The notes under the pieces were generated by a model. The model saw only the letters and a program-made list of their open reading frames with translations. It ran no database searches and had not been told where the DNA came from. DNA of 64,000 bases from contig JAPLTG010000009.1 of the NCBI GenBank assembly GCA_026398255.1, positions 1 to 64,000 on the forward strand, read 5' to 3'. This DNA is from Verrucomicrobiota bacterium. GTDB lineage: Bacteria; Verrucomicrobiota; Verrucomicrobiia; Chthoniobacterales; Terrimicrobiaceae. The position numbers were made by a program, and so were the translations under genes. Positions 1 to 64,000 of the stretch are shown here, piece by piece (the stretch's first letter is position 1; each line of letters starts with the position of its first letter).

Positions 1-802
<802 letters not shown>

Positions 803-2864: not shown

Positions 2865-2868
2865 TCCC

Positions 2869-3321: not shown

Positions 3322-3380
3322 ATTCCCCGCTCCGATGTCTTGCCTAGCGGAAAACTTTGGAAGAGGTCTGTAGCCCCGCG

Positions 3381-3491: not shown

Positions 3492-3494
3492 ACT

Positions 3495-5414: not shown

Positions 5415-6330
5415 GCCGCGTCCAAGGAGCCAGTCGGCTCAAGACAATGTCGTGAATCGCTACAAACTTCTTTATATCGCCAGCCTTCCTCACTCGGGAT
5501 CTACCGTTTCCAGCCTCATTCTTGGCCAGCAACCCGAGATCATCGGTTTGGGCGGCATCGACCGCGCGGTGACGATCCTTGCAGAAGAACCAGAAAAAGC
5601 CGTTCAGGAGTTTTGTTCCTGTGGGAATAAGGTGCGGGAATGCGAATACTGGTCGCAGGTTTTAGCCAAAGCTGATGCCGTCAAAGGAGCCGGACAGCGG
5701 CAAAGATATGATCTGGCGCTCTCCGTTTTTCAGGGCGTGTTCGGCTTGGATGCCTGGGCCGTGGATTCGTCAAAGCACGCCGAACCGATTGCCGAGCTGT
5801 CCCGTTATTCTGAAATCGACTTGCGAGCCCTCCACCTGTGCCGGGATTATCGTTCGGCTGTTGTTTCCTCGGTAGATCTCAAACGAACCCGAAAAAAGGT
5901 GGCACGCCCAGGTTGGATGATTGGCCTCGAGGCCGGATTGCGTTGGCACAGGGGAAATGCAAAAATACGAGGCATCCTTCTTCAGAATAAGATTCCCTTT
6001 CTGGGTATCGGCTATGAGGAACTCTGCCTCGGCCTCCCACATTTTTTCCAGAAACTCGGTGCATTTTTGAACACCCAGATAAGCGAAGTTCCGGCAACGG
6101 TAGCAGGTTCGCGAAGCCATCTTTTCATTGGAAACGCCATGCGCCGCCAGAAGCAGAAGGAAGCCCTCATGTATGACTACCGCTGGTTCTCGCGCACCGA
6201 TTGGATGGCGGCCTCGTTGCTGATGCCGTGGCTGGCGAAAGGCAACAGGGATTGGGTCTATGGCAACGGGTTCTCCCGCGTTTTCGGCCATGAAAGCGGC
6301 AATAAATGGAACCCTTCGAAATCTGATTGA
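5407..6330 (+). CDS. Sulfotransferase family protein
   Basis: About 307 residues. The N-terminal strand-loop KLLYIASLPHSGSTVSS fits the 5'-phosphosulfate-binding loop of PAPS-dependent sulfotransferases. The segment LHLCRDYRSAVVSSVDLKR fits the 3'-phosphate-binding region (Arg plus Ser). Two Cys pairs (CSCGNKVREC) resemble those of bacterial sulfotransferase-like proteins. It probably transfers sulfate from PAPS to a glycan made by the neighbouring enzymes; the acceptor is inferred. Start candidates are ATG at 5407, ATG at 5413 and GTG at 5452. The first two collide with the divergent gene's start. The downstream glycosyltransferase begins at or just after its stop, so the two are an operon. 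Confidence 0.8.
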   Translation: MTMPRPRSQSAQDNVVNRYKLLYIASLPHSGSTVSSLILGQQPEIIGLGGIDRAVTILAEEPEKAVQEFCSCGNKVRECEYWSQVLAKADAVKGAGQRQRYDLALSVFQGVFGLDAWAVDSSKHAEPIAELSRYSEIDLRALHLCRDYRSAVVSSVDLKRTRKKVARPGWMIGLEAGLRWHRGNAKIRGILLQNKIPFLGIGYEELCLGLPHFFQKLGAFLNTQISEVPATVAGSRSHLFIGNAMRRQKQKEALMYDYRWFSRTDWMAASLLMPWLAKGNRDWVYGNGFSRVFGHESGNKWNPSKSD

Positions 6331-6341
6331 AGAACGCCCTC

Positions 6342-7442
6342 ATGCCGAAAAAGGTTCTCTACATTTACGAAGGAAAACTCACCCGACACGGCATTGATGC
6401 CGTAGTCCGACAGCAACTGCAGGCTCTTGGCGAGCTTGGTCTGCATGTCGATCTGGTCAGTCGAGGCAACCCCGGAATGCCGGGCGTCACATTCCACGGC
6501 ATGAAATGGACGCCCGCAAATGCTCTCTCCTGGCTGCCCCGTAGCATTTACTACCCTGCTCAAAAACGGTTCTTCATGGCCTTGGGCGCACGCCTCGCCA
6601 AGCGCGAAGGGTATTCAAAAATTATCAGCTGGAGGGACCGGGCGCTGCAAAGTTTCCGCATCGGTAAAAAAATGGGAGCCTCCTGCTTTTTGAATCACGA
6701 CTCCATGCACTGGAGTCGATCCACCGCACAAGGTGCGGCTCCGCGCTGGCCAGCATTTTCACGCGAGGAGATGGATGAGGAATACGCATTGGCCAACGCG
6801 ATTTTGCTCCCTTCGGAAAATTCCCGATCGAGCTTCCAAGGGCACGGCATTCCGAACGAAAAACTTTACGTCATCGGCCGCGGTGTTGATACCGACACTT
6901 ATCAACCTTCGCCAGAAACTCGGACGGATGTTTTCCGCCTTGTCTTCTGCGGCCGTGTCGGAGAGCGCAAAGGCATTCGACAAGTCGTCGAGGCTTGGAA
7001 AACGGCTGCATTGCAGAATGCCGAACTTTTGGTGATTGGACAGGTCGATGATGATGTCGCCGACTTGGTCGAGGAGACCCGGGAATCCAACATTCGCTGG
7101 ATGGGGTTCCGCTCCGACTTGGCTCAAATTCTCCCAACATGTCAGGCTCAAATTCTCCTTTCCCGAAATGAAGGCATGGCCAAATCGCTTCTCGAGGGAG
7201 CTGCCTGTGGGCTCGCTACGATCGCAACCATAGACTGCGGTTTTCCATTAAAGGAAGGCATCAACGGATTTTTGGTCGAACGAACCGATGTTCAGGGCGT
7301 TGCCAACTTGCTAAATATGCTCCAAGAGAACCCCTCTCGCTGCGCTGAAATAGGCGAGAATGGTCGTCACACAGTAGTCGCGGAGTATTCTTGGGCTGCC
7401 TTTCGGAAACGCTTCGTCAACGCCCTGAAGCTCTCCGACTAA
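6342..7442 (+). CDS. Glycosyltransferase family 4
   Basis: 366 residues. GT-B fold: an N-terminal acceptor domain (LTRHGIDAVVRQQLQALGELG), then the C-terminal donor domain with VFCGRVGERKGIRQVVEAW and the GT4 E-x7-E-type segment SRNEGMAKSLLEGAACG (about residues 275-290). It transfers a sugar from a nucleotide-sugar donor during surface-polysaccharide assembly; sugar identity cannot be read from sequence. A TTG at 6327 overlaps the sulfotransferase stop (TTGA) and would add five residues. The ATG at 6342 (MPKKVLYIYEG) fits the family better. The stop overlaps by four bases with the convergent gene at 7439. Confidence 0.88.
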   Translation: MPKKVLYIYEGKLTRHGIDAVVRQQLQALGELGLHVDLVSRGNPGMPGVTFHGMKWTPANALSWLPRSIYYPAQKRFFMALGARLAKREGYSKIISWRDRALQSFRIGKKMGASCFLNHDSMHWSRSTAQGAAPRWPAFSREEMDEEYALANAILLPSENSRSSFQGHGIPNEKLYVIGRGVDTDTYQPSPETRTDVFRLVFCGRVGERKGIRQVVEAWKTAALQNAELLVIGQVDDDVADLVEETRESNIRWMGFRSDLAQILPTCQAQILLSRNEGMAKSLLEGAACGLATIATIDCGFPLKEGINGFLVERTDVQGVANLLNMLQENPSRCAEIGENGRHTVVAEYSWAAFRKRFVNALKLSD

Positions 7443-8923
7443 GGCTCCACCTTATTTTCCGACTGAATGGAATAAACCCGGAAAGGCGGTGCGAGGTAGA
7501 GATTGTCTCCAATATCCCATTCCTTGAGAAGCTTGCCTTCTTGGAATAGCTGCTCGTAAAAGTTTTTCATCTGCTCAAACTCCTCTTCATTTCCCTTCGT
7601 GGGCTTGGAGCTTTTTAAAAAGAATCGCCCATAGTGTTTGCTGCTCACAATGATATGGGTAAACCCCTCTCGACGCAGCGAGTCGAGAGTGTCGCTAGGT
7701 TGAATGGAACGATTTTCAAGATTTCGAACACCAGCCTTTGTAACCTCAACCCGTTTATCTTCGACAATCTTGGATTCGCCGGAGATTTCATTTTCTATAA
7801 AAGCCAAGAGTTCCTTCCTGTGATCGTCGGTAAACCCTCGATTAGCCGCAAATAAACGCGGCGCTTGCCACGCCACAGATAGTAAAGTCAAGGCAACCAC
7901 CACGATAAAACCATGGCGGATTTTGAGAACATCCTTCAAGCCAACAGCACTCAAACACGCCAACAGCACAGCGACTGGAAGAAAATACCTGTGGTGAGTT
8001 TTAGGCAGAAAGGAAAGAACAGCAACATACAAGATGGGAAGAAAAATCATCACACGCTCCATCGGGGCAAGCTTCAATCTCCTCTTGAAAACATCGAACG
8101 CATACACCCCGAGTAGTCCAATCAACACGGGCGTTGCCGATTGCCAGTAAATGTTTGAATAAACTCCATGCGGCACACTGCGCGTCGAAATTTTTGACTG
8201 GCCCGTGAGAGAATCGATCTCCCGGTCCAAACTTCCAGAGGCCTTCGCAAGTGCTTCAAAGGCTGGAAAATTGATCAAAAATACACCCGCGCAAAAAAAT
8301 GCCGCTGCAACCGCCAAATCCCTTGGTTTGTTTTGAGAATAAGCCACTAAAAGGTAAACAGCGAATGGGAGGACTATCGCCGCGGAATACTTTGCAGAAA
8401 GTGCCACTGCACATGCCAAACCAACAAATCCAGCCTCTAACACTCTGGGCTTCTCTGAGTAAAGAAGCATGGCAAAAAGAGCAAGCGCAACACCAAACAG
8501 CAGGCAAGGATCCTCTTTGAAATAATGCGCAAGGTCGAAAAGGTGTGGGTTGGAAATCAGGAAAATCCCCGTGGCCACGGCTACCAGCGGCCCATGGAGG
8601 CGACCATTGATGAGAACAAAAAGAAACACTGCCAATGAAGCGTAAATAACGCTTGCCCAACGTCCAGCAAGCATCACAAATGTAAAATCCGCCGCTTTTC
8701 CGGAAAAATCCGCAACAATTCTCGCCGTTCGGATCATCAGCATCGGGTGATGAAAATTGTATTCGTTTTTCGTGATCTGCGCTGCCTTATTAGGTTCATC
8801 CGGATGCGCATACAGATAAAAATCCAAATTGCGCCCGAATAAAATCAAGCTCAACCCAAGAAAAACAAACGCCGCCAATATGGGCCAGCGCACCAGAAAA
8901 GTAGCATTCTGATTTGCAGTCAT
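7439..8923 (-). CDS. Integral-membrane glycosyltransferase, GT39/ArnT-like
   Basis: 494 residues with about ten transmembrane segments in the first 350 residues and a soluble C-terminal tail. The first periplasmic loop carries YLYAHPDEPNKAA, matching the acidic loop (D-E) that serves as the catalytic site in PMT/ArnT-type GT-C enzymes. HYFKEDPCL fits the second acidic loop. Such enzymes transfer sugars from polyprenyl-phosphate carriers on the periplasmic face. It overlaps the LAB_N gene by four bases (8920-8923), which follows a GT2 gene that could make the polyprenyl-phosphate sugar. The gene is clearly AT-richer than trpB/malQ upstream in the same run. Confidence 0.78.
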   Translation of the reverse strand: MTANQNATFLVRWPILAAFVFLGLSLILFGRNLDFYLYAHPDEPNKAAQITKNEYNFHHPMLMIRTARIVADFSGKAADFTFVMLAGRWASVIYASLAVFLFVLINGRLHGPLVAVATGIFLISNPHLFDLAHYFKEDPCLLFGVALALFAMLLYSEKPRVLEAGFVGLACAVALSAKYSAAIVLPFAVYLLVAYSQNKPRDLAVAAAFFCAGVFLINFPAFEALAKASGSLDREIDSLTGQSKISTRSVPHGVYSNIYWQSATPVLIGLLGVYAFDVFKRRLKLAPMERVMIFLPILYVAVLSFLPKTHHRYFLPVAVLLACLSAVGLKDVLKIRHGFIVVVALTLLSVAWQAPRLFAANRGFTDDHRKELLAFIENEISGESKIVEDKRVEVTKAGVRNLENRSIQPSDTLDSLRREGFTHIIVSSKHYGRFFLKSSKPTKGNEEEFEQMKNFYEQLFQEGKLLKEWDIGDNLYLAPPFRVYSIQSENKVEP

Positions 8924-9264
8924 TTCAAATTTTTTCTATGGCTGAAATCCAAATACAAATTGTAAATAGCCACCGACATAGGGAAGAGGTTTGAAAGTAT
9001 CCCAACGGAGTCATTTTTACCAAAAGTGAAATAGCTTAGAAGGCAAAAGCTTCCAGCGATGCTCACATACCAAAAGAGGCGCGGGAGCACGGGCTTCCCG
9101 GATATTTTTGAGGCACCCATCTGCAAAAGCCAACGGGCAGAAAAAAGCAAAGCTCCTAAATAACCTACGACTTTACCCGAATCCACCGATATACCCCAAA
9201 AATGACCCAAGGGGATATTGAAAAAAGAAACCATTTCTGTGTGCAATAGTGAAAAAAAACTCAT
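8920..9264 (-). CDS. Small membrane protein, lipid-A-disaccharide-synthase N-terminal (LAB_N) domain
   Basis: 114 residues with three predicted membrane helices. The core GYLGALLFSARWLLQ, then KPVLPRLFWYVSIAGS and the ending NLFPMSVAIYNLYLDF, match the LAB_N domain. That domain occurs fused to LpxB in some bacteria and as a stand-alone protein beside GT2/GT39 genes. Here it is sandwiched with 4-base ATGA overlaps between a GT2 and an ArnT-like gene. I infer a role with these two, for example in membrane anchoring or in translocating the polyprenyl-phosphate sugar. No biochemical function is established for the isolated domain. Confidence 0.85.
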   Translation of the reverse strand: MSFFSLLHTEMVSFFNIPLGHFWGISVDSGKVVGYLGALLFSARWLLQMGASKISGKPVLPRLFWYVSIAGSFCLLSYFTFGKNDSVGILSNLFPMSVAIYNLYLDFSHRKNLK

Positions 9265-9947
9265 TTTTTAAGCTCCAATGGCCAAAGAATCATTCGTGTC
9301 ATAATCCAACGCACTCCAACCAGATCTATAAGCCCTCGGAGCGCACGGCCATTGATGGTGTATTTGGAAACGCCGGTTTTTCTGGGGCGATGGCCAACTG
9401 GAATCTCTGAAAACTTGAGGCCTGCCCGCTCAAAAAGAGCCGGTAGATAGCGATGGAGACCGTTAAAAGGAATCAACAACTGGACATGCTCACGCTTAAT
9501 GACCTTCAGAGAGCAACCGGTATCCGTGGCGCGATCACCCAGAGCTTTTCTTCGAACAGCGTTTGCCAAGCGCGAGGCAATGCGGCGCTTCCAATCATCC
9601 CGACGAACAGCCCTGAACCCATAGGCCACATCTGCGTTCTCTAAGGCAGCGACAAGACGGGGAATATCTGCAGGATCATTCTGACCATCGCCATCCATCA
9701 TCGCAATGATCTCGCCAGTGGCCGCTTGGAGACCCGCAAAAAGAGCCGCGCTTTGCCCAAGATTGCGAGGAAATGAAACGAGCCTCACCCCATTCAATGC
9801 GGCAATTTTTGCGCCAGTTCCATCCGTGCTTCCATCATCCACCGCAATGACTTCCGCATCGGGAAGGGCTTTTTTTACCTCCATCAGGACATCCTCGACA
9901 GAGCCGGATTCGTTGAAAAAAGGCAGCACGATGGAAAGGGATTTCAT
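9261..9947 (-). CDS. Glycosyltransferase family 2, polyprenyl-phosphate sugar synthase-like
   Basis: 228 residues, GT-A fold. Motifs are SIVLPFFNE, VDDGSTDGT and the metal-binding MMDGDGQNDPADIP, close to the DPM1/ArnC/GtrB type. The length equals soluble DPM1-like enzymes, since C-terminal membrane helices are absent. It likely moves a sugar from a nucleotide donor to undecaprenyl phosphate for the downstream ArnT-like enzyme. The ATG at 9947 gives the family N-terminus. The long upstream in-frame extension overlaps the GT9 gene and is rejected. The stop overlaps the LAB_N start (ATGA). Confidence 0.9.
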   Translation of the reverse strand: MKSLSIVLPFFNESGSVEDVLMEVKKALPDAEVIAVDDGSTDGTGAKIAALNGVRLVSFPRNLGQSAALFAGLQAATGEIIAMMDGDGQNDPADIPRLVAALENADVAYGFRAVRRDDWKRRIASRLANAVRRKALGDRATDTGCSLKVIKREHVQLLIPFNGLHRYLPALFERAGLKFSEIPVGHRPRKTGVSKYTINGRALRGLIDLVGVRWIMTRMILWPLELKK

Positions 9948-9993
9948 GGATGAGCGCGTCATTTTCGGTATAGCTGGGCAGGTGTCAATCTCC

Positions 9994-10986
9994 TCAACTT
10001 CCCGAGAGTGCGGAAACGATGGCCGCCTCGACATTGGCGACAGGAATCTCCTGCATGGATGATTTAGGAAAATTGTGGGGGTAACTGGAAACTCCCGATG
10101 CGCCAACAGCCCTCCCTTGCTCGCCGCGTGGCCCCCAGTGAAGTGGGTTGGTGGCCCCAAAAAGAACAGCGCATGGAATACCAAGCGCATCGGCCATATG
10201 CGCTGCACCGGTATCCACTCCGACATATATCCGGGCCAGCGCGAGTGTGGAGGCAAGAGTATCCAAGGTGGTTTCGCCTGCCAAAGAGAAGATACGCCCT
10301 GATGATCGGGATAGGATATGGCTGATCTGCTCCAGCTCGTCTGAATGACCGCCACCGGTCAGAACAACATCCAGATTGGCTGTGGTTGTCAGAAATTCCG
10401 CCGTGCGAATCCAATTGTCCACGCCCCACATTTTTTCGGAGCGCGCCGCACCAGGATGAATCACGGCGAAATGGGGCCCAACTCCTCGGCTGCTGAGGAA
10501 TTCCCTCATGGCTTGAACCCAGTCCGACGATACGGAGATACCCCTTCGCGCTCCTTCCGTTTGGATTCCCAAGCCTTTCAAGAGATCCAAATGGTAATCC
10601 ACTGTGTGCCGATTTTTGACATCTGATTCAATAAATCGGTTAAAGGCCATGCGGCGGCCTGCTGAGCCCCCGTGCCGCTTATAGGTCGCACGGATCCGCG
10701 CCATGGAAAGCCCAGCAACCAATACCCCGCGATCCGTTCCAGTGAACTCCAGACATAAATCCCAAGGGCTCAAAAAAATTTGCCGCCAGAAGTGGAAATT
10801 CAACCTGCGTTTGTTGAAATACAGCGGCTCTATCCCGGGAAAGAGGGAATCCACCCCGCGGCAAGCGCTATCCATCACCACCGATAGAGTTGCTTTCGGG
10901 AAAGTCGAACGAAGGACATCGAACACAGGAGCGGTGAGAATGACATCGCCGATGCGCTTGTTTTGAATGACAAGGATTCTTCGCAT
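9994..10986 (-). CDS. Glycosyltransferase family 9 (heptosyltransferase-type)
   Basis: 330 residues. N-terminus MRRILVIQNKRIGDVILT, a central VIHPGAARSEKMWG and the donor-site segment GVDTGAAHMADALGIPCAV are all hallmark GT9 motifs, as in WaaC/WaaF/RfaQ. The enzyme transfers a heptose or related sugar onto an LPS-type core in the cytoplasm. ATG 10986 starts exactly at the family N-terminus. The 62-residue upstream extension lies in the preceding gene. It sits 5 bases after the GT4 gene and 46 bases before the GT2 gene. This is the intact counterpart of the truncated GT9 at 3381. Confidence 0.92.
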   Translation of the reverse strand: MRRILVIQNKRIGDVILTAPVFDVLRSTFPKATLSVVMDSACRGVDSLFPGIEPLYFNKRRLNFHFWRQIFLSPWDLCLEFTGTDRGVLVAGLSMARIRATYKRHGGSAGRRMAFNRFIESDVKNRHTVDYHLDLLKGLGIQTEGARRGISVSSDWVQAMREFLSSRGVGPHFAVIHPGAARSEKMWGVDNWIRTAEFLTTTANLDVVLTGGGHSDELEQISHILSRSSGRIFSLAGETTLDTLASTLALARIYVGVDTGAAHMADALGIPCAVLFGATNPLHWGPRGEQGRAVGASGVSSYPHNFPKSSMQEIPVANVEAAIVSALSGS

Positions 10987-10991
10987 GGGCT

Positions 10992-12197
10992 TTATTTCTT
11001 TGCGTGGCCCTCGGCTATGAGGCGTTCGTAAAGGCCTGTGTATTTCAAAGCCACATTTTCCCATGAGAAATTCTGTGCGCGCTCCGCAGCATTGGCTCCA
11101 AGTTGGTGTTTGAGAATGGAGTCGCTGGATACTTTTCTCATGCTCTCGGCCAGCATCTCGGGTGCGCCGCAAGGCGAAAGAAGAGCCTCGCGCCCGTGTT
11201 CCACCTGATCCACAATGCCTGGCGCCGAAGTCGCAATAATGGGCAGCCCCGCTGCCATGGCCTCAAGTAGCGCCGAACTAAATCCCTCCAGCTGCGATGA
11301 GAGAACAAACGCATCCCCCGCACGGTAAAGCTCCACAAGCCTGCTCGGTGGGAGTTCAGGCGGGACTCCCAGAGACGCTTCTGGCGTCAGCTCCATAAGA
11401 TGAACTTGAGATTTAAGGCCCATAGACTCGACAAGCCCCTGCAACAAGGGAACGCCCCGACCGACGATTGCGAGATGGACCGCACCCGGTAAAGAACGAG
11501 CAGCTAGTATCTGGAAAGCCTTGAGCAAAGTGGGCAAATCTTTTTGCGGATGATTCCGCGCCACACAGAGAAAAAGAAAGGCCTCTCGAGGAATTTGGAG
11601 AACATCCCTCGCGGCCATCTTATCGGAGGCCAATGCGAAGCGGAGCTGATCAACCGCATTCGGAATCATCTCAATTTTTTCGGCAGGCACGCCGATTTTT
11701 TTCAGTTGCTCCGACATGTCCCGGGAGAGGGAGACGAGACAACTAGCGCGGGGAATCCAATGGCGAATGAGCCTGTCCATGTGCGGATGGGATTTGACCC
11801 CGGAGACCGCCTGAACATCATCGCCCACCGCGCGGATCAAGCCAGGGATACCGGTATGTGATTGCCAGTTTGCAAAACAAACACCGGCCGGCGAGAGAAC
11901 CACTGTGTGCCAGACATCGAAGCCGTGCCTCCGATGAAGAGCGGAAAGAATACGGCGATTCAGCCAAAAAGCCAAAGGTGCGGAGTATTTGAAATAGCTC
12001 CAGATATTCGCCGGGAAAGGAACTGTCGCGTAGGGGAGGTTCCAGCGCTCCGCGTGAAGACGCCGATGAAGGGAGCGCGGAAGGACAATGATCGGTTCGT
12101 GCCCCATCGCGACAAGGTGACTCGCAAGATTGTGATGAAAAATTTCCGCACCCGAGCACTTCGGCAGAAATGTTGGCGTGAAAATCGCGATCTTCAT
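10992..12197 (-). CDS. Glycosyltransferase family 4
   Basis: 401 residues, GT-B. N-terminal TPTFLPKCSGAEIFHHNLA is the classic GT4 opening (xGGAExxxxxLA-like). The linker IEMIPNAVDQLRF and the donor-domain strand FLCVARNHPQKDLPTLLKAF follow. The C-terminal active-site segment is SSQLEGFSSALLEAMAAGLP with two conserved glutamates. It adds a sugar to a lipid-linked or LPS-type acceptor at the cytoplasmic face of the inner membrane. The start overlaps the previous GT4 stop by four bases (12194-12197), so the pair is translationally coupled. Confidence 0.93.
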   Translation of the reverse strand: MKIAIFTPTFLPKCSGAEIFHHNLASHLVAMGHEPIIVLPRSLHRRLHAERWNLPYATVPFPANIWSYFKYSAPLAFWLNRRILSALHRRHGFDVWHTVVLSPAGVCFANWQSHTGIPGLIRAVGDDVQAVSGVKSHPHMDRLIRHWIPRASCLVSLSRDMSEQLKKIGVPAEKIEMIPNAVDQLRFALASDKMAARDVLQIPREAFLFLCVARNHPQKDLPTLLKAFQILAARSLPGAVHLAIVGRGVPLLQGLVESMGLKSQVHLMELTPEASLGVPPELPPSRLVELYRAGDAFVLSSQLEGFSSALLEAMAAGLPIIATSAPGIVDQVEHGREALLSPCGAPEMLAESMRKVSSDSILKHQLGANAAERAQNFSWENVALKYTGLYERLIAEGHAKK

Positions 12198-28825: not shown

Positions 28826-29281
28826 CTACTCGCTGACCTTCTTTTTCAGTTTCAGCGTTTGGTTCAGCAGCGGCAGGTGGGCGATATCCTTCGGTCGCTT
28901 GATGTGCTTCTTGCTGGCGATGATTCTTTGGAGAGGTAGAACACGAATCTGGCGTCCATCCCAATCCAGCGCAACGGCGTGGTCATACTCGTCGGCGAAG
29001 GATTTGAGTCCATCGATGCGGTAAAGAAAATTTACGAGCGTGTCATCGGCGAGTGCCACAACAGTTCGAGCTAGGATTTCGGCGCCGAGTTTTTTTGCGA
29101 TATCGAGGGCCTTCACATATCGGCGCTCTGGCAATTCCAGCCAGATGTCGGTGTCCAAGGTGGTCGCGGGGACACCTTGCAGAATAGCGGCCGTCATTCC
29201 GGCGAATTGAAACCGAATGCCTTCCTCTGTGAGCGCGTCAACAAGCCGAGCGAGCGGAGATGGGCTTGGTGCATCGCCCAC
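28826..29281 (-). CDS. Nucleotidyltransferase-fold protein
   Basis: 151 residues. IRFQFAGMTAAILQGVPATTLDTDIWLEL resembles the minimal nucleotidyltransferase core: strand, then a G-[GM]-x-A-helix, HG-like turn replaced by QG, then TxDxD (TLDTDIWL) metal ligands; the segment spans about residues 22-50. RVLPLQRIIASKKHIKRPKDIAHLP is the usual following helix with basic residues and RPKD, seen in AbiEii-like/DUF6036-type proteins. It could be the enzymatic half of a toxin-antitoxin-like pair. The N-terminal 29 codons overlap the 58-residue ORF. A start at 29197 (ATGA overlap) would remove the first core strand. Confidence 0.7.
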   Translation of the reverse strand: MGDAPSPSPLARLVDALTEEGIRFQFAGMTAAILQGVPATTLDTDIWLELPERRYVKALDIAKKLGAEILARTVVALADDTLVNFLYRIDGLKSFADEYDHAVALDWDGRQIRVLPLQRIIASKKHIKRPKDIAHLPLLNQTLKLKKKVSE

Positions 29282-30864: not shown

Positions 30865-31512
30865 TCAGGCCGGGCGCTGGGAGAGCGGCGTGTGGAGTTC
30901 GTGCCGGATTTCGTATTGATCGCCGAGGATTTGGGTTTTGCGCCGCACGGGGACTCCGAGGATTTGGCGAAACATCGATTCCTCCAGGGTGTCGGCTTCG
31001 GGGAAGGCCTTGTGGAGCGCGGCTGAGGGGTTGTGGCGTTCGACGATGCGGAAGCCGATCTCGAGAGATGCCATGTAGCCCTCGGAATCCCGCAGGGCGG
31101 TGAGGCGTTCCATTTTTTCCGAGATCGGCAGGCTGGCCGGAATCGAGGCGCGGTATTTTTCGAGGCGTTCTTGGAAGTGGAGGAAGAGGAGCTTCCCGGC
31201 GCTGGCGGAGCCGAAGAGGTTTTGGGCGTGGCGGAGGATGGAGATCGCGGTGGCGTTGTCATTTTCCTCGAACCAAGCTTGGCCTCGGCGCGAGAGGGCG
31301 TAGACGAGCAGCGGTCGGCCGGGGCCCCGGTGGGTATTGCGACTGGCGAGGAGTCCGCGCTTCTCGAGGGCGAGGCAGTGGGATTTCGCGCCCATGTAGC
31401 TGAGGCCAAGCTTTTCGGCGAGGGGGCGGACGGGGAGCGGTCCGGAGGATTTGATTTCGCGGAGGACTTCGTCCTGACGGCAAGTGGCGGACTTTGGGGC
31501 GCCGGGAGGCAT
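30865..31512 (-). CDS. Winged-helix transcriptional regulator (SufR/ArsR-like)
   Basis: 215 residues. The N-terminal winged helix is DEVLREIKSSGPLPVRPLAE with recognition region LGLSYMGAKSHCLALEKRG and a wing THRGPGRPLLVYALSRRG, which recalls SufR-type regulators. SufR keeps a C-terminal Cys set for an Fe-S cluster. Here only two Cys exist, both in the N-terminal third, so a cluster is unlikely. The start is ATG 31512, 4 bases after the TPR gene stop; the longer frame overlaps that gene. Being last in the exosortase operon, it may regulate that locus. Confidence 0.75.
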   Translation of the reverse strand: MPPGAPKSATCRQDEVLREIKSSGPLPVRPLAEKLGLSYMGAKSHCLALEKRGLLASRNTHRGPGRPLLVYALSRRGQAWFEENDNATAISILRHAQNLFGSASAGKLLFLHFQERLEKYRASIPASLPISEKMERLTALRDSEGYMASLEIGFRIVERHNPSAALHKAFPEADTLEESMFRQILGVPVRRKTQILGDQYEIRHELHTPLSQRPA

Positions 31513-31516
31513 GGGG

Positions 31517-33349
31517 CTAATCTGCTGGCAAGAGGGCGCGTTCCTCGGGGCGGAGTTGATCTTTTCTGATCGTGGATGCGATCTCGTCGGCCTCGGATTT
31601 TTTGCCGTTGGCGTAGAGCACGGCGGCGCGGATATTTTTCCAAGGCTCGGGTGCGGTGGACCAAGCGATGAGCTTGTCCTTGTAGATTTCATCGGCTTGG
31701 GCGGGCTCTCCATCCTTTAAGAGAGCAAGCGCGGCGATGCTCATCGCGGCGAGGGAATTTGGAGATTTCTTGAGGTTATCTCTAGCAAGCACGGCCGCAT
31801 CGAATCCGCTCTGGTTCGTGAGGAGTTGCAGGTAGGCACGGTCGCTGCGGGCCTCTTCGAGGTTCGGGAAAACTTCGAGGAATTCGTTATAAACAGGGAT
31901 CAGGTCAATGGCCGGGGAGTTTTTTGGAGTGCATCGGATGATGCCGAGATAGCCTTCCAAGGCCGACTCGCGCCGCCTGGCGAGAACTGTGAAGACCTTG
32001 GCGGCTTGTTCGTTTTCGCCGATCCGCATCGTGTAGGCGGCCACGAAGGAGACGACCTCGGGTTTTTCGTATTGGAGGGAAAGGTGCATCTCGCGCCAGT
32101 TCTTGGCGGCGTTCTCGGAGTCGCCGGATTTTTGCGCAGCGCGTGCCAGGAAGAGCATCCGAATACTTTCAGAAAGGCCCGAAACGGAATTGGCATCGAG
32201 CATGGTGAAAACATCATTCCAGCGGCCGAGTCCAGCGAGGGCGTCGAGGTAGATGAGGAGCCACTCGGTTTTGGCGAGGGCGCGGTCGCGGCCGATAAAG
32301 GCGAGGGATTCTTCTTGGAATTGGCGGGCGGCCAACCATCGCGCGTAGCTGATTTGCTCTTCCTCGTTCTGGGTGGAGAGGCGGGTGGAGAGCTTGGAAA
32401 GGACGGCTCGCTTGGAAGCGGGGTCGTGGAGGATCTGCAGCTGCCCGGCGAGGAAGTAATCGGCGTTGGCGCGAAGCGGGTGGGCTTCGAGGCTTTTCGC
32501 GAGGGCGAGGGATTCGGGGGAGTTTTTGATGCCCTCGTCGATCGTCTGTTTCGCGAGGATGCGAAGGGCGGCGAGGCCGTTTTCGGAATTCTTTTTGGAA
32601 AGAGGAACGAGGATTTGACGACTGACTTCGGGGTTGGATTTCAGAACGAGCTCGGCCGTGGCGAGCAGGATTTTCTCGCCCTCGGCGGGTGGAAAATTCT
32701 GCAACGAAGCGCGGGCAAGGTCCACAGCGGCTTGGGGATTCCCCTCAGCGGCAGTGAGTCGCATCTCGACGATGGTGCGTCGTGCGGAGGGATGGGGCTC
32801 GAGTTTTTTCAGGGCCTCTTTGGTGATGGTGGTCTTGCGAAAAACGAGGGATTGCTCGGCAAGGACGACTAATTCTTCGGGACGGGCCTGGCCTTCAAGC
32901 ATCAGAGCCTCCAGAATCCCAAGCGCGGCCTGGTCCCCGATGCTGGCATTGAAGATTCGGACGCGGCGGAAGATGTCTTCATCCCCCGGAGCAAGGACAA
33001 CGGCCTGCCTCATGAAAACAAACGCCTTTTGGAGATTGCCAGCGGATCCGTATTGCTCGCAGCGATCCATTAAATGACTTGCTCGCAATATTTTGAACTT
33101 TCGGTAAATCGGCAGGGCGGAAAGTGAGACGATAATGCAAAAAATCAGGATGCCCGCGACAATCTGAAAGCGGATGTCGAAGGCGATATTCCGGAGGATG
33201 TGGGTGGGTTGTTTGTGGCCACGGTCGTCATCGTAATCCGGCAGGTGATTGTGATCGGGCAGAGAAGCGGGGCCTGGATTTTCCTCGCTTTCGGGCGGTG
33301 GGGTCACAGAGCGACGACGGGGCGCTTTTTTATCGGACATCCCACTCAT
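31517..33349 (-). CDS. Membrane-anchored TPR protein of the exosortase operon
   Basis: 610 residues. Residues about 1-65 are polar and cytosolic (KKAPRRRSVTPPPE...). A single membrane segment follows (IVAGILIFCIIVSLSALPIY). The rest, about 500 residues, is alpha-helical with TPR-like repeats (AGNLQKAFVFMRQAVVLAPG is typical). The predicted topology places the repeats outside the cytoplasm. Start ATG 33349 forms ATGA with the exosortase stop; a second ATG at 33340 is possible. Similar TPR proteins are found beside exosortases and EPS genes and may scaffold them; role inferred. Confidence 0.8.
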   Translation of the reverse strand: MSGMSDKKAPRRRSVTPPPESEENPGPASLPDHNHLPDYDDDRGHKQPTHILRNIAFDIRFQIVAGILIFCIIVSLSALPIYRKFKILRASHLMDRCEQYGSAGNLQKAFVFMRQAVVLAPGDEDIFRRVRIFNASIGDQAALGILEALMLEGQARPEELVVLAEQSLVFRKTTITKEALKKLEPHPSARRTIVEMRLTAAEGNPQAAVDLARASLQNFPPAEGEKILLATAELVLKSNPEVSRQILVPLSKKNSENGLAALRILAKQTIDEGIKNSPESLALAKSLEAHPLRANADYFLAGQLQILHDPASKRAVLSKLSTRLSTQNEEEQISYARWLAARQFQEESLAFIGRDRALAKTEWLLIYLDALAGLGRWNDVFTMLDANSVSGLSESIRMLFLARAAQKSGDSENAAKNWREMHLSLQYEKPEVVSFVAAYTMRIGENEQAAKVFTVLARRRESALEGYLGIIRCTPKNSPAIDLIPVYNEFLEVFPNLEEARSDRAYLQLLTNQSGFDAAVLARDNLKKSPNSLAAMSIAALALLKDGEPAQADEIYKDKLIAWSTAPEPWKNIRAAVLYANGKKSEADEIASTIRKDQLRPEERALLPAD

Positions 33350-34932
33350 GGCTGGACGGCTGGGGTGCCGACTTCCAAGGATTGCTCCAAGTAGCGTTGC
33401 AAGACCACGCTCGCTTCCGCGACATGATCCGTTCCCCATACGGCGGCTTCCAGTAGACGCTGACCGCGATTCCTGACTCCACTAGCAACGGCAGCCCATC
33501 GTCCCTCGCTCGAGCTGATGCCCGTTTCAGATTCCAACATGGGCGCATTATGAGAATTCGGTTGGCGGTCTGCAATAATCGAATGAAAAACAAGAATTGG
33601 CCGTCCCCTATCGGAAAAAAGATACACATTAAATGGCAAGATGATTCCCTTTGCGCGGATTTCAAGAGGCTCAAGCTGGCGCACCATTTTCATTCCGATA
33701 CTTCCGAGGCAGGTCTCGGGATTATGAATATTGATGGCCTGCGCCGCCGTGCGACCGGCGGGCCAGCGAAAATAGAAAAACTGCCAGGGGCGCTCTTGGG
33801 CATCTCGGAAGGTTTCCGAAAATCCCTCGGGGAAAAATAGAATCCGGCGCGTCTTGTCAGCCACGGGGACGGGCTTCGTTCCGGCCGTGCCTTCGCGGAT
33901 GGTCCAGCCAGCCGAGGAAGGCGACTGGCGTTCATGCAGGCGATACCATGCCTCGGTTCCACCCAGCGAAAGAACCAAGAGCGTGAATCCAAAAAAAGCG
34001 GCCCTCCGGAGCTGACCCGGCACCTCGGGGGTGGGAGGGGGTGGCGGCAGTTTCTGCGGAGGCATGTGGCGAGTCCGCCGGTAGTGGAGGGCATACGAGA
34101 GAAGCCACAGGGAACCAAGGGTGAAAGCCAGCGTCGCGAAGCCAGCGGCGTCATGCCACGACTCCAAAGTGGCCAGGCCCTGCGTGGCAGCGACGAGGGA
34201 GAGCGTGGTGGCACGAATGAAATTCCCAAAGATGGCGAATCCCAGAGCTGAAAAAACCAGCATCCCGCGCGTGAAGATCCCGAACCGGAAAATCTCCCCG
34301 AAAAACAGCGAAGCCATCAGGCCGCTTTGCATGGAGCGCACTCCACTGCAGGCCTCCTCCACGCCAATCAACCCACCTGGCACGGAGATCAAATTTCCGC
34401 GCCGGACGGCTTCGAAACCGCACCAATGCAGGACCTCAAGCGCCGCGATGGCGTTTTTTTCCATGAGAAATCCCATGAACGCCTCCTCCGCGTTGCGCGG
34501 CCAGGGAACGGCGATGAGAAAAAATGTGATCGGGAAAAAAAAGTGCCGCAGCCAAGGCCGACCGCCCAGCGAGTGAACCAACACCAACGAGATCGCCACC
34601 GCACTGATCGCTCCGAACATCCCCGGGATACGCCATTCAGGGTTGGCTTCGAAAAACGGCTGAATTCCCGCAAGGAAAACCAGCGGGGGCAGCGCGAGAA
34701 GGAGGTTCCGCGACAGGTTGGCGGGTGGCGCCGCCGCCGGGCGGTCTCCCCAGCGTTGCAGAAACAATCCCACGCAAAGGAGGGGAACGAGAAAACCGTA
34801 GCTGTATTGCGGATCGATCTCCCAATCAGTCCAAAGCATCCGAATGGCCAGCCACCACACGGCGGCGAGACCGGCAGCGAGGGGCAGAAAGTCCCGGAGG
34901 GGGCTTCGGTTGGCGGAATTTTCGAGTTTCAC
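33346..34932 (-). CDS. Exosortase with fused C-terminal EpsI-like domain
   Basis: 528 residues. The first ~290 residues hold about eight membrane helices with the exosortase catalytic triad in order: Cys in GVEEACSGVRSMQSGL, Arg in GNFIRATTLSLV, and His in WHDAAGFATLAF. Residues about 315-500 are an EpsI-type periplasmic domain (NIHNPETCLGSIGMKMV). Exosortases cleave and transfer proteins bearing PEP-CTERM-like tails at the inner membrane. The fusion is known in some exosortase classes. ATGA overlaps occur on both sides. I find no PEP-CTERM-type substrate in the window. Confidence 0.92.
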   Translation of the reverse strand: MKLENSANRSPLRDFLPLAAGLAAVWWLAIRMLWTDWEIDPQYSYGFLVPLLCVGLFLQRWGDRPAAAPPANLSRNLLLALPPLVFLAGIQPFFEANPEWRIPGMFGAISAVAISLVLVHSLGGRPWLRHFFFPITFFLIAVPWPRNAEEAFMGFLMEKNAIAALEVLHWCGFEAVRRGNLISVPGGLIGVEEACSGVRSMQSGLMASLFFGEIFRFGIFTRGMLVFSALGFAIFGNFIRATTLSLVAATQGLATLESWHDAAGFATLAFTLGSLWLLSYALHYRRTRHMPPQKLPPPPPTPEVPGQLRRAAFFGFTLLVLSLGGTEAWYRLHERQSPSSAGWTIREGTAGTKPVPVADKTRRILFFPEGFSETFRDAQERPWQFFYFRWPAGRTAAQAINIHNPETCLGSIGMKMVRQLEPLEIRAKGIILPFNVYLFSDRGRPILVFHSIIADRQPNSHNAPMLESETGISSSEGRWAAVASGVRNRGQRLLEAAVWGTDHVAEASVVLQRYLEQSLEVGTPAVQP

Positions 34933-36392
34933 CGGCCCTTGCCGAAAAGCATCACATGAAGAGTTTTCAGGATCACGGTGGCGTCGAGGGCGATGGAAAA
35001 ATGCCGGATGTAGTAGAGGTCATACATCAATTTTTCGATCGTATCCTCGATGTTGGCTCCATAGGGGTAATTCACTTGGGCCCAACCCGTGATGCCCGGT
35101 CGGACGAGGTGCCGGAAGTGATAATAGGGAATCGCCTGCTCGTAACGCTCCACGCATTTGATCCACTCCGCGCGTGGCCCAATGAGGCTCATTTCGCCCC
35201 GGAGCACATTCCAGAGTTGCGGCAACTCATCGAGTCGCGTGAGGCGGAGCCAATGCCCGAGACGGGTCACACGGGGGTCACCTTCCACGGTGTAGAGTCC
35301 CTTAAACTCGCTGCCGACCTCCATCGTGCGGAATTTGTGCAAGGTGAAAAGACTGCCGTGCTGACCGACGCGCGTCTGGCTGAAAAAAACCGGGCCGCGT
35401 CTCTCGAGTTTGATCAGCAAGGCGACGAGGGCCATCAACGGGGCCATGATCAAAAGCGTGAGCGAGGCCAGAACGAGATCGAAAATCCGCTTCAGCGAAG
35501 CGAAAGCAGAGTGCTGCACGAGTTGGAACCCCGAATCCAACGGCCAGCTCCGACTGAGCAGGTCGGGTGGCATTTTGTGCCAGAAGGTTTCGTGGAACGA
35601 ATGCATCGTGTAAACCGGCAGTTCGCGGAAATGCACAGCGACCAGCGCCGCGAGGACATCGTTATTCAGGTGGTCCGTGTGCGTGGCGATGACGATGCCC
35701 TCGTGCTCAAAGTTCGAATGCCCTTCCAGATCCTTAATAACCTCGGCGGCCAATCCCTCGTAAACCGGCGTTCCAGGACCTGCGACATTGCGACCGACTT
35801 CCGCGTCGCCCGTGGCAAAAAAGTGCAACTGCTCCCGGAGACCCTTCGCGGCGGAAGTTTTGAAAAACCTCTCACCCGACTCGGCATCGCTAATCACAAG
35901 CAGGCGGCGATTTTCCCTGGCCATGCCCGGGGTCGAGTAAAACAAACGCCGCTGGAAGAGAGAGAAAAGGGTGAAAGCCAGAAACGAACCCGAGAAAATC
36001 GCGCGACTCGAGGCCACCGCGCCACCGAAACTCGCCACCAAGTAAACCGCGAAAGCCGAGAGCAGAAAGGCCGCGAAACAGGTGATCAGATGCTCGCTCG
36101 TGTAGCCCAGGGATTTCATCTCCGATCGCGGGTCGTAGGCTCCGATCAAACTGAGCGTGAATATCGAAATGATCATCGGCAGAAGCACTTCAGCCCACCC
36201 GAATCGGTTAAAATCCCCGGTGAACTCCGACAGGGCCAAGTAAGATCCCGCCCAAGCCGCCGCATCCAGCAGGAGAAACAACAGCATCATCGACCGCTCC
36301 CGAGTCGAGCCCCGGGCAACTTTCAAGCCCGCAGGAAACAAATTCGCCGGACGGGCGGCAAAAATTTCAGGCGTGTGTTCTGTAACCTGCAT
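34929..36392 (-). CDS. Polyprenyl-phosphate glycosyl-1-phosphate transferase (exopolysaccharide initiation)
   Basis: 487 residues with four N-terminal membrane helices, a Rossmann-like middle domain, one more helix near residue 310, and the C-terminal bacterial sugar transferase domain: FFSQTRVGQHGSLFTLHKFR, then LRLTRLDELPQLWNVLRGEM and SLIGPRAEW. This enzyme class (WbaP/WcaJ-like) starts exopolysaccharide repeat units on undecaprenyl phosphate. It is the first gene of the exosortase operon and overlaps the exosortase start by four bases. Its presence supports linkage of sorting with EPS. Confidence 0.95.
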   Translation of the reverse strand: MQVTEHTPEIFAARPANLFPAGLKVARGSTRERSMMLLFLLLDAAAWAGSYLALSEFTGDFNRFGWAEVLLPMIISIFTLSLIGAYDPRSEMKSLGYTSEHLITCFAAFLLSAFAVYLVASFGGAVASSRAIFSGSFLAFTLFSLFQRRLFYSTPGMARENRRLLVISDAESGERFFKTSAAKGLREQLHFFATGDAEVGRNVAGPGTPVYEGLAAEVIKDLEGHSNFEHEGIVIATHTDHLNNDVLAALVAVHFRELPVYTMHSFHETFWHKMPPDLLSRSWPLDSGFQLVQHSAFASLKRIFDLVLASLTLLIMAPLMALVALLIKLERRGPVFFSQTRVGQHGSLFTLHKFRTMEVGSEFKGLYTVEGDPRVTRLGHWLRLTRLDELPQLWNVLRGEMSLIGPRAEWIKCVERYEQAIPYYHFRHLVRPGITGWAQVNYPYGANIEDTIEKLMYDLYYIRHFSIALDATVILKTLHVMLFGKGR

Positions 36393-36490: not shown

Positions 36491-37186
36491 TTGACGCCCC
36501 CGATCGCCATCGCCAATCTTCGCGCCATTGCCTTGAGCCTTCTCGCCAAATTCCGATTCCCGCTTTTCTTGGTCCTGCTGGGCGTCATTTTGATCCCGGC
36601 CTCTTTTTCGTGGGATCATCCCGTTCGCGAGACGCTCGTCTCGTCGCAGGGACCAAACTGGAAAAAGTCCCCGCTCCGCAAAACCTACGAGACCATTCGC
36701 CGGTGGGGGGACTGGCCTCAACTCATGGTCACCGGAGCGCTGGGGTTTCTGGTTGCAAAATGGAAGGGAAGCCGCAGATGGAGCCGCATTTTCCTGATCG
36801 CGATGGTGGCCTCCACTCTTGCCGGCATGGTGGCCAATGCCTCCCGACTCACCACCGGCCGCACCCGCCCGCGCGAAAGCCCCAAGATCGAGCAGGGATT
36901 CTACGGCCTACAGCATGAAGGCCGGTGGCTCATCGGCGTTCCCGCCTACAATTCCTTCCCCTCGGGTCACACGGCCACCGCCTTTGGCTTTGCCGCTGTG
37001 ATCGTGCTCGCCTCGCCCGCTTGGGGACTCGTGGTCGCCATTCCCCTCGCCGCCTCCATCGCCGGAGCCAGTATCGGCATCGGAGCCCACCATCCCTCGG
37101 ATATTACGGTTTCGATCCTGATTTCCTTCTTGGTGGCTTGGGGCGTGTGGAGGTTTTCCGAAGCCCGCTTCCCAGCCCGACGCTGA
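36491..37186 (+). CDS. PAP2-superfamily phosphatase
   Basis: 231 residues, five to six membrane helices. Motif 1 is represented by TTGRTRPRE, motif 2 by NSFPSGHTATAFG, and motif 3 by GIGAHHPSDITVS. In motif 3 the usual Arg six residues before the His is replaced by Ser, so either the catalysis or the alignment is atypical. Likely acts on undecaprenyl-PP or other lipid phosphates at the periplasmic face, which fits the neighbouring EPS operon. The start is likely TTG at 36491. Divergent from the sugar transferase. Confidence 0.85.
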   Translation: MTPPIAIANLRAIALSLLAKFRFPLFLVLLGVILIPASFSWDHPVRETLVSSQGPNWKKSPLRKTYETIRRWGDWPQLMVTGALGFLVAKWKGSRRWSRIFLIAMVASTLAGMVANASRLTTGRTRPRESPKIEQGFYGLQHEGRWLIGVPAYNSFPSGHTATAFGFAAVIVLASPAWGLVVAIPLAASIAGASIGIGAHHPSDITVSILISFLVAWGVWRFSEARFPARR

Positions 37187-61574: not shown

Positions 61575-64000
61575 GTGATTAGAAACTACACAACAGTTGC
61601 TGATTTTGCGTTGGACAAGTCAACACTGGCAGGTGACTCGGGCTCGGACACCTTGGGCTTTACGGCCGCAGTTGTTTTTAACGATTCAACTCTCGAAGGA
61701 ATGGCCGCTGCTACGGTCAATGGCAACACCAAGATTGAGGTTTTAACACTCTCCGATGCGGTCGGCAACCAAGTGACTTTGGGCGGCAATGCCTCGCTGT
61801 CGGGTTTTCAAACGGTTTTTGGCGGGGCGAGTGCCGACCGGATCATTGCGTCCGATTTTCCGTTGGGGTTTGGGGTTTCGATTTTCGGGGGTGACGGAAA
61901 CGACACTTTAGCCGGAGGAAACGGAGCCGACCGACTAGATGGTGCGGATGGCGATGACAGCTTGTCAGGCGGTAACGGCAATAACACCTTGGATGGCGGC
62001 ATTGGAGTCGACACCATGGTAGGAGGCACTGGCAACGATTCCATCGTAGTGGATGACCTGCTGGACTCCGTGGTTGGCGGAACCGGAACCGATACTGTTC
62101 TTGCCAATGTGAATAGCTATGTTTTGGGTAGCACAAGTGCGGTCGAATGGCTTATTGCCGGTTCGGGCGTAACTAACCTTACTGGAAACGCTTCCGCAAA
62201 CACTTTAGTGGGTTCGTCTGGCAACGACACGCTTGATGGCGGAGACGGCAATGACAGCCTTTTTGGAGGAACTGGAACCGATACCTTGATCGGCGGTAAT
62301 GGCAATGACGCCATCGCTGTTGATAATTTAAATGACTCGGTTAGCGGGGGTTCCGGAACCGACAGCGTCATCGCCAATGTTAACAGCTATGTCTTGACGG
62401 CATCCAGCTCTGTGGAGTGGCTTATTGCCGGAACGGGTATTACCACCCTTTCCGGAAATGCCGACGCTAACACAATCGTTGGAGGGAACTCCTCAGACAG
62501 CTTGGTTGGCGGCGGTGGCGGAGACAGCTTGTCAGGCGGTAACGGCAATAACATCTTGGATGGCGGCATTGGAGTCGATACCGTGGTTGGCGGAACCGGC
62601 AACGATTCCATCGTGGTGGATGACCTGCTGGACTCCGTGGTTGGCGGAACCGGCACAGATACTGTTCTTGCCAATGTTAATAGCTATGTTTTGGGTAGCA
62701 CAAGTGCGGTCGAATGGCTTATTGCCGGTTCGGGCGTAACTAACCTTACTGGAAACGCTTCCGCAAACACTTTAGTGGGTTCGTCTGGCAACGACACGCT
62801 TGATGGCGGCGGTTCGAACGACAGTCTGTTCGGCGGCGCGGGTGATGATTACTATATCGTCGATGTTACAAACGATAATGTTAACGACTCGTCTGGAACG
62901 GATTCGGTTTTAGCCAAAGTCACCGGATACACTCTGGCTGCAACCGCTGATTGGCTTATTCTCGACACCGCTATCGCTGCGGGAACTGGCAACGCTCTCG
63001 CCAACACGCTTCTTGGCAATTCGGTCGCCAACTCTTTGGATGGCGGCGCAGGCGCCGACAGTATCGCCGGCGGAGACGGCAATGACTCCTTAGCGGGAGG
63101 AGCAGGCAACGACACGCTCTTGGGCGAAGGTGATAATGACACCCTCAATGGCGGTGAGGGCAACGACTCCCTCGTAGGCAGCACGGGCGACGATTATTAC
63201 ATCATTGATTCGTCTTTAGATGTGATCAGCGATGGCACGGGAGAGGATTCCGTTCTGGTTCAATTCACCGGTTACACGCTGACCACAGACGCCGACTGGC
63301 TGATTCTGGATTCCATGTCCTCGATTGTCTCCGGAGTTGGCAACGCAGCCGCCAATACCCTCCTTGGCAATTCGGTTGCCAACACGCTCGATGGCGGTGA
63401 CGCTGCCGACAGCCTCGAAGGTGCGGCAGACAACGACACGCTTTTGGGCGGTGCGGGCAACGACACGCTCTCCGGCGGAGACGGCGCGGACAGCCTCGTT
63501 GGCGGCGACGGCAACGACTCGATGGCCGGCGGCGCGGGCAATGATTACTTTATTATTAATTCCACAACAGATGTGGTTAGTGACTCTGCGGGCGTTGACT
63601 CGGTCTTTGCTACTATCACCGGCTACACATTGGGTCTTGGGGCTGATTGGCTCATATTGGATTCCCCCGTCGCCTCAGGAGCCGGGAACTCCATAGATAA
63701 CACTATAGTTGGAAACGCTATAGCAAACACACTCTTCGGGGCTGAAGGAAATGACAGCATTACCGGGGGTGGTGGCAACGACTCCATGATTGGAGGCGCG
63801 GGTGATGATTACTACATTGTAGACTCAACATTGGATGGAGTCTATGAGGATGGTTCATCAGGAATAGATTCCATTCTTGCCCAAGTAACCAACTTTTCTC
63901 TTAATAGTAATACGGAGTGGCTCATCTTAGATTCCACAATTGCAGTTGGAACTGGAAACTCCATTGATAACACTCTCATCGGCAACTCGGTTGCAAACAC
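61575..64000 (+). CDS. RTX-type calcium-binding beta-roll protein, 5' part (continues beyond window)
   Basis: 808 codons are in the window without a stop. The N-terminal ~90 residues (NYTTVADFALDKSTLAGDSG) have no signal peptide. Dozens of glycine/aspartate nonapeptides (for example GGDGNDTLA, GGNGADRLD, GGTGNDSIV) follow, typical of calcium-binding hemolysin-type repeats. Between arrays, seven copies of [E/D]WLI-containing units occur at 62145, 62415, 62712, 62949, 63294, 63645 and 63915 with in-frame spacings of 79-117 codons. A type I secretion route would suit the lack of signal peptide, but the C-terminus and any transporter are outside. GTG 61575 is the only candidate start after an in-frame stop at 61548. 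No Shine-Dalgarno is obvious. Confidence 0.88.
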   Translation, partial: MIRNYTTVADFALDKSTLAGDSGSDTLGFTAAVVFNDSTLEGMAAATVNGNTKIEVLTLSDAVGNQVTLGGNASLSGFQTVFGGASADRIIASDFPLGFGVSIFGGDGNDTLAGGNGADRLDGADGDDSLSGGNGNNTLDGGIGVDTMVGGTGNDSIVVDDLLDSVVGGTGTDTVLANVNSYVLGSTSAVEWLIAGSGVTNLTGNASANTLVGSSGNDTLDGGDGNDSLFGGTGTDTLIGGNGNDAIAVDNLNDSVSGGSGTDSVIANVNSYVLTASSSVEWLIAGTGITTLSGNADANTIVGGNSSDSLVGGGGGDSLSGGNGNNILDGGIGVDTVVGGTGNDSIVVDDLLDSVVGGTGTDTVLANVNSYVLGSTSAVEWLIAGSGVTNLTGNASANTLVGSSGNDTLDGGGSNDSLFGGAGDDYYIVDVTNDNVNDSSGTDSVLAKVTGYTLAATADWLILDTAIAAGTGNALANTLLGNSVANSLDGGAGADSIAGGDGNDSLAGGAGNDTLLGEGDNDTLNGGEGNDSLVGSTGDDYYIIDSSLDVISDGTGEDSVLVQFTGYTLTTDADWLILDSMSSIVSGVGNAAANTLLGNSVANTLDGGDAADSLEGAADNDTLLGGAGNDTLSGGDGADSLVGGDGNDSMAGGAGNDYFIINSTTDVVSDSAGVDSVFATITGYTLGLGADWLILDSPVASGAGNSIDNTIVGNAIANTLFGAEGNDSITGGGGNDSMIGGAGDDYYIVDSTLDGVYEDGSSGIDSILAQVTNFSLNSNTEWLILDSTIAVGTGNSIDNTLIGNSVAN
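61956..62242 (+). repeat. Internal duplication of the RTX-like gene, copy 1
   Basis: 287 bases nearly identical to 62523-62809, offset 567 bases (189 codons, frame preserved). It covers the module from GACAGCTTGTCAGGCGG to the [E]WLI segment and the following ANTL/GNDTLDGG. A few differences remain, mainly in the first 140 bases; the last ~130 bases are identical as far as I can read. Confidence 0.9.
62523..62809 (+). repeat. Internal duplication of the RTX-like gene, copy 2
   Basis: Matches 61956-62242 with only about ten visible differences. The flanking modules (for example the one around 62415) are more diverged, so this pair is a recent duplication or gene conversion. Confidence 0.9.

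Follow-up and report, generated by a model that had tools for sequence, protein, structure and literature searches.

A fused exosortase–EpsI protein and its TPR partner as a candidate C-terminal protein-sorting system in a freshwater-type Verrucomicrobiota bacterium

The locus beside described exosortase systems

Exosortase systems are common, and their helper proteins are poorly defined. The closest described counterpart of the locus analysed here is the XrtA/PEP-CTERM-EPS system of Proteobacteria (EpsH, EpsI, PrsK, PrsR, PrsT; PMC1569441), in which PrsT is an extracytoplasmic lipoprotein that was linked to PEP-CTERM proteins by phylogenetic profile at a proteobacterial locus. For Verrucomicrobium spinosum, the count in the same paper is 65 PEP-CTERM proteins and two EpsH copies, with no PrsT listed. 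Because the paper had already reported an EpsI-EpsH fusion in 2006 (PMC1569441), such a fusion per se is not new. Further comparisons are offered by the exosortase XrtD (VPLPA-CTERM), the regulator SufR, and the TPR protein LbcA of Pseudomonas aeruginosa. The latter is an extracytoplasmic lipoprotein that partners the periplasmic processing protease CtpA, a soluble serine protease.

The window, i.e., the whole stretch of DNA analysed (64,000 nt; G000:C21:1-64000), belongs to a 2.6 Mb genome (completeness score 100%) of a freshwater-type Verrucomicrobiota bacterium of the Chthoniobacterales (Spartobacteria). The exosortase of a sister genome, labelled uncultured Spartobacteria, is 95% identical to that of the window, and 16 genomes of the window's genus were compared, some of them labelled Spartobacteria AMD-G4, Chthoniobacter flavus or Terrimicrobiaceae. 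Four genes lie on the minus strand from 36392 to 30865 in the order GT (34929..36392; polyprenyl-phosphate sugar-1-phosphate transferase for EPS repeat-unit initiation, TIGR03025), XRT-EpsI (33346..34932; exosortase with an EpsI-like C-terminal domain, assigned by PF09721 and conserved residues), TPR (31517..33349; N-terminal TM segment and an alpha-solenoid up to a C-terminal LxPEExxL), and REG (30865..31512; SufR-like winged-helix protein without Fe–S cysteines, an optional neighbour). XRT-EpsI starts with GTG in a 4-base overlap with GT (GTGA), TPR (610 aa) starts at 33349 in a 4-base ATGA overlap with the XRT-EpsI stop, and REG (215 aa) starts at 31512, 4 bases past the TPR stop, which confirms the operon of four overlapping or nearly touching genes proposed in an earlier, sequence-only reading. 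The TPR start was chosen because of the ATGA overlap and the homologues; the longer variants in the list of open reading frames, starting at 33439 (TPR) and 31713 (REG), are less likely. A divergent gene for an undecaprenyl-diphosphatase-like PAP2 phosphatase (36491..37186, plus strand) is regarded as a neighbour and at most as a candidate member of the operon; none was found beside the operon in the remaining genus members. It also adjoins the operon in the sister species.

This system and the XrtA system have in common an exosortase together with EpsI (here an EpsI-like domain), a sugar transferase for EPS, a TPR protein, PEP-tailed exported proteins, and a link to EPS. The window's exosortase differs in falling below the XrtA cut-off and in carrying the EpsI-like part as a fused domain, and its TPR protein is a 610-residue, TM-anchored protein, whereas PrsT is a lipoprotein; no lipobox was seen when the TPR sequence of the window was read by eye. 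The window TPR matched no NCBIfam family at E<0.01 and hence not PrsT (TIGR02917), and among 55 TPR relatives PrsT was the commonest NCBIfam match (32/55, best 1.9e-20). The likeness to XrtD consists of a weak profile match (73.4 bits, residues 37-418) that continues into the C-terminal extension, yet lies far below the cut-off (400 bits), and the tails differ from VPLPA, being PEPET in the host and VPEM/VPEA in one related family. On the best reading, the system is analogous to XrtA/PrsT yet not the same.

The fused exosortase and its TPR partner

The exosortase part of XRT-EpsI (approximately residues 20-280) matched PF09721 with 134.2 bits (gathering score 25.7), and C195, R199, R240 and H260 were invariant across 58 aligned sequences. 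Within NCBIfam, the signature TIGR04178 was the only model passed; TIGR02602 was matched with 84.6 bits (cut-off 105.55), and the score was below the cut-off of every named subtype, the best being XrtA (TIGR03109) with 93.8 vs 208 bits. The EpsI-like part (approximately residues 340-525) holds an invariant HxPxxC motif (H403-x-P405-x-x-C408). The window's domain matched DUF3485 below the cut-off (E=0.026), 13/23 of its relatives matched DUF3485 (best 2.8e-7), and 4 matched TIGR02914 (EpsI, best 0.013). The PF09721 score, the motif, and the DUF3485 matches in relatives support the exosortase–EpsI fusion read from the sequence. The predicted structure (pLDDT 91) has a multi-helix membrane domain. 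A sequence search of solved structures returned no exosortase relative, and structure-search matches (Foldseek/VIA) cover almost solely the EpsI domain. The modelled fold of residues ~340-525 appears to resemble PsbP, Mog1, DcrB and SciW; this likeness is taken as a lead only, because its Z of about 7-8 is within the range of chance arrangements.

Members of the TPR family can be aligned over their full length and share a conserved TM segment near the N-terminus as well as the C-terminal LxPEExxL. Its individual repeats are subthreshold by sequence, and the model of the window protein (pLDDT 91) is a clear TPR-like alpha solenoid plus a single N-terminal TM helix, embedded in a long helix (59-102). 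Fold matches, LapB and LbcA among them (LbcA: Z 12.2, TM 0.46-0.52; LbcA-CtpA, PDB 7rqf, 8sxf), are generic for TPR solenoids, which match many unrelated proteins; as regards function, LbcA offers a helpful analogy.

Gene places were compared in 117 related genomes, using 118 fused exosortase entries (weak and partial matches included) and 62 unfused ones among the matches listed. Among the matches listed, 71/118 fused exosortases had a TPR gene no more than 5 kb away, mostly at a distance of ~0.2 kb, as against 0/62 unfused ones, these counts being uncorrected for relatedness; the 47/118 fused entries without a TPR gene in 5 kb, again among the matches listed, include some that are partial or at contig ends. 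The co-occurrence of the TPR family with this exosortase class, which the sequence-only reading had named as a point to check, was thereby upheld. Looking from the TPR side, 32/40 genes scoring at least 500 bits adjoin a fused exosortase, and five of the remaining eight (in G058, G106, G050, G032 and G100) have a VPEM/VPEA-type tail gene at a distance of 0.16-0.46 kb. One relative locus (L259) has the gene order substrate-TPR-XRT, and other relatives, too, have a tail gene right next to XRT or TPR. In a tree of 117 exosortase domains, 26 unfused domains formed one clade, none with TPR; many unfused loci in this tree have short flanks, and the gene-place comparison is the stronger test. Sister to that clade (midpoint rooting) were four long exosortases (type C) that come from the window's genus and are divergent, all four with TPR. 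Their C-terminal extension, in which the motif HDVxxCYxNxGW was spotted by eye in 3/4, gave no match to the EpsI profile built here.

Judged by these gene neighbourhoods, TPR is a genuine partner of the fused exosortase, and a protein that tracks fused exosortases, or substrates when the two are separated, is a tangible candidate for delivering substrates. The recurrence of the XRT-EpsI/TPR pairing across related bacteria extends a known kind of surface-protein sorting. Within the host genome, a TPR protein at G000:C15 was rejected as a second sorting TPR, as it has no TM helix and adjoins manC and a class I tRNA synthetase gene; a third paralogue is located at G000:C11.

Sorting tails in the host and in related genomes

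In agreement with the earlier statement that the window holds no sorting-tail substrate, a motif-TM-basic scan of its 64,000 nt found no tail. The genome-wide tail search, set beforehand as a test on which the reading could fail, did not refute it and returned at least five tails of the form [VA]PEPET[WY]AT-TM-basic. Three exceed the TIGR02595 cut-off (C4:30527, C4:35797, C39:130022), and two were noticed when repeat-protein C-termini were inspected by eye, one at C42 (L307 1477-6225; VPEPETWATAVILLVGGMVWFLKR) and one at C9 (L310 1-1785; APEPETWATGILLLLGGAVWLWRKR). A further TIGR02595 match (G000:C42:237683) was rejected as a tail, being within a TonB-like protein. The tails have extra residues beyond the basic cluster. 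Four of the five belong to beta-strand-repeat proteins, and TIGR02601 repeats are contained in the tail proteins of C4, C42 and C9; the repeat frames on C4 and C42 span 1583-1890 residues, the frame on C9 is truncated where its contig begins, and the C39 tail lies at a contig end with no repeat part visible. The frame at C4:30348-35267 opens with a signal-peptide-like stretch, and the tail at C4:30527 is in a different frame from the repeats preceding it; 2/5 tails sit in out-of-frame or contig-edge genes. Because the PF09721 search detected no second exosortase in the host genome and the window's XRT is the single detected copy, it would be the obvious enzyme for the predicted removal of the host's PEP tails.

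In related loci, tails occur in which PEP is changed to PEA, PEM, PEV or PES. The proteins carrying them mostly have signal-peptide-like N-termini and adjoin XRT (L137, L152) or TPR (L131, L133), or are small proteins of 106-113 residues encoded directly upstream of XRT (L282, L283). A VPEM/VPEA profile had 1-4 matches per genome in 16 genomes, of which 15 belong to a single soil family, and no match in the window's genus. The VPEM-tailed proteins examined matched no NCBIfam sorting model, and three genomes of the soil family (G058, G106, G115) have a fused exosortase, no TIGR02595 tail at E<=1, and one VPEM/VPEA-type tail each. In this family, VPEM/VPEA tails seem to stand in place of PEP and to go unrecognised by NCBIfam. 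The median number of PEP-CTERM proteins was 3.5 in genomes with fused exosortases only vs 36 in those with unfused ones only, the genomes being related to one another and p-values for the trend therefore not independent; in other genomes, it may be chiefly the unfused class that uses PEP tails. As a rule, that fused exosortases never serve PEP-CTERM proteins was rejected, although the trend is there: the fused-only genomes G090 and G044 have 16 and 40 tails, respectively.

Proposed mechanism and competing readings

The operon is probably a C-terminal protein-sorting system made up of XRT-EpsI and a TPR adaptor, together with the GT polymer and REG as an optional neighbour. Its substrates would be giant, Sec-exported beta-strand-repeat proteins ending in PEP-TM-basic tails, which would halt them in the inner membrane; TPR, as a membrane-anchored adaptor, would bring them to XRT-EpsI, which would cut or transfer at the PEP motif and release the protein towards the cell surface, while GT would make the first lipid-linked sugar of an EPS produced together with the sorted proteins. 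At the sequence level, this proposal is based on gene order, intact catalytic residues, the single detected exosortase, at least five tails, and the conserved TPR pairing. Cleavage or transfer, the adaptor role of TPR, and the use of the GT polymer are inferred from the exosortase literature, PrsT and LbcA.

XRT-EpsI might bypass the PEP-tailed repeat proteins and act on one unrecognised protein, as in the VPEM soil family; the low PEP-CTERM counts in fused-only genomes and the VPEM/VPEA/VPEV-tailed proteins adjoining the system in relatives speak for this, but the window's genus has no VPEM-type tail and no other exosortase was detected in the host for its five PEP tails, and we consider this reading unlikely. 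Evenly poised in our judgement is the proposal of a distinct Verrucomicrobiota exosortase subclass, in which XRT-EpsI and a cognate TPR adaptor would have co-diversified with the tails, with PEP becoming VPEM/VPEA/VPEV in some lineages that have one dedicated substrate or a few. If so, TPR would be a substrate-selecting exosortase subunit; no description of such a TPR partner or of VPEM/VPEA tails was found in the searchable open papers (subscription journals and preprints being outside the scope). The VPEM/VPEA tails suggest drift of the sorting motif, which would make specificity testable by tail swaps between relatives.

The role of TPR can also be read from the GT side, as an EPS polymerisation or export scaffold (AlgK-, PgaA-, BcsC- or LapB-like) that is there for GT, with the exosortase as a separate passenger. 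GT heads the operon, some TPR relatives remotely match PgaA, BcsC or LapB, and LapB is among the fold matches. Yet most relatives with XRT-TPR have no adjoining GT, TPR is found paired with tail genes at sites distant from XRT, too, and no unfused exosortase adjoins TPR among the matches listed, which leaves the scaffold role rather improbable. By profile, GT scores 325.5 bits with TIGR03025 (cut-off 295.55) and stays below the cut-off of TIGR03013. It is kept ahead of XRT throughout two groups, the window's genus and family f13, where it belongs to the unit, and is absent beside XRT from most other related loci. The link between polysaccharide initiation and protein sorting noted earlier thus holds in gene order for the genus and f13 and fails as a general feature. 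Elsewhere in the host, another EPS production gene, encoding Wza, was found over the PF02563 cut-off (G000:C13:78240). The side of the membrane on which the solenoid lies is a separate matter. A cytoplasmic TPR domain, reading the basic tail end or coupling GT to XRT, would be compatible with the adaptor role, and the C-terminal flank of the TM segment, more positive in 36/61 relatives (the N-terminal flank in 14/61), leans towards it. The charged tail of ~58 residues preceding the TM segment of the window protein, hard to translocate, was counted against it and leans the other way, and the proteins closest in function, PrsT and LbcA, are both extracytoplasmic; a cytoplasmic solenoid is considered a real possibility, slightly short of even. 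Of the exported repeat domain in the sequence-only reading, the TPR solenoid stands and the export is putative, with the flank charges in the family and the N-terminal tail of the window protein pointing opposite ways.

As a whole, that reading was supported in the exosortase–EpsI and TPR pairing and not in the dedicated regulator. Its description of REG as SufR-like without the Fe–S cysteines was correct: the SufR_cyano profile (TIGR02702) matched over the winged helix and the C-terminal region (2e-14, 53.8 bits) without reaching the cut-off of 178.8, and the only two cysteines are residue 11 and one in the winged-helix domain, with none of the C-terminal Fe–S cysteines. No suf genes were found among the scanned neighbours of REG relatives. 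REG follows TPR by 4 bases and lies beside it in 8/16 genus genomes (G000, G015, G006, G002, G013, G007, G012, G011), but it is on another contig in G003 and was not found in the other 7/16, some of which are incomplete, and so co-occurrence of the regulator family with the exosortase class was not kept. Distant relatives adjoin htrA (G017, G019, G020) or galE (G018, G024) in genomes that lack the fused exosortase operon. Given this patchy linkage and these neighbours, the role of dedicated regulator was rejected as very unlikely, and REG is regarded as an optional passenger of the operon.

Sorting tails in the window's genome and in relatives

Two C-terminal tails of the PEPET[WY]AT type in the window's genome (L310 1-1785 and L307 1477-6225) were absent from the list returned by the genome search with the PEP-CTERM tail profile TIGR02595, even at E<=10; tail counts obtained with this profile are lower bounds. 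In a soil family, sorting-like VPEM[SA] tails were found on signal-peptide proteins whose genes are convergent with that of the TPR, the membrane-anchored alpha-solenoid partner of the exosortase (L266 12594-13286, L268 13103-13918, and L269 8785-9498, minus strand; L267 4848-5540, plus strand); in several genomes of this family, PEP-CTERM models recognise hardly any tails or none at all. Small proteins of 106-113 residues with a VPEVN-TM-RRR tail are encoded directly upstream of the fused exosortase on two further stretches (L282 8349-8687, plus strand; L283 9529-9846, minus strand).

The EpsI-like domain and its fusion

The predicted model of the EpsI-like domain (window 33349-34008) is similar to PsbP/Mog1/DcrB and to SciW/EagT6, with borderline Z. 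SciW and EagT6 serve as chaperones for effectors, whose TM segments they bind. In the related genome G010 (L046 and L095), the exosortase-EpsI fusion reads as two overlapping frames of 405 and 212 aa, which may reflect either a sequencing error or a real split. In the family of G033, G043, G051, and G059, the EpsI-like region and the exosortase lie in separate frames; they are fused elsewhere in the order.

A divergent exosortase and a TPR relative

The window's genus has a second, divergent long exosortase (type C) with its own TPR (L259 4506-9311; also L256, L257, and L258), and on L259 a VPEPGQ-tailed substrate, the TPR, and the exosortase stand in one row. By eye, the type C extension carries HDVxxCYxNxGW, in three of the four copies, where HxPxxC would stand. 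The L256 copy, from the sister species, has an apparent frame shift close to its end. A TPR relative without TM helix (L252 8999-10783) is a cousin, probably cytoplasmic, of the sorting TPR; its gene adjoins one for a ManC-type sugar nucleotidyltransferase and one for a class I tRNA synthetase.

Other features of the window

An ORF of 151 residues (window 28826-29281), 99% conserved in the sister species, had no Pfam match and no convincing NCBIfam match. GC content is 48-55% in stretches of window 1-12000 and 62000-64000 versus about 60% in the remainder, and these low-GC stretches are possibly acquired segments.
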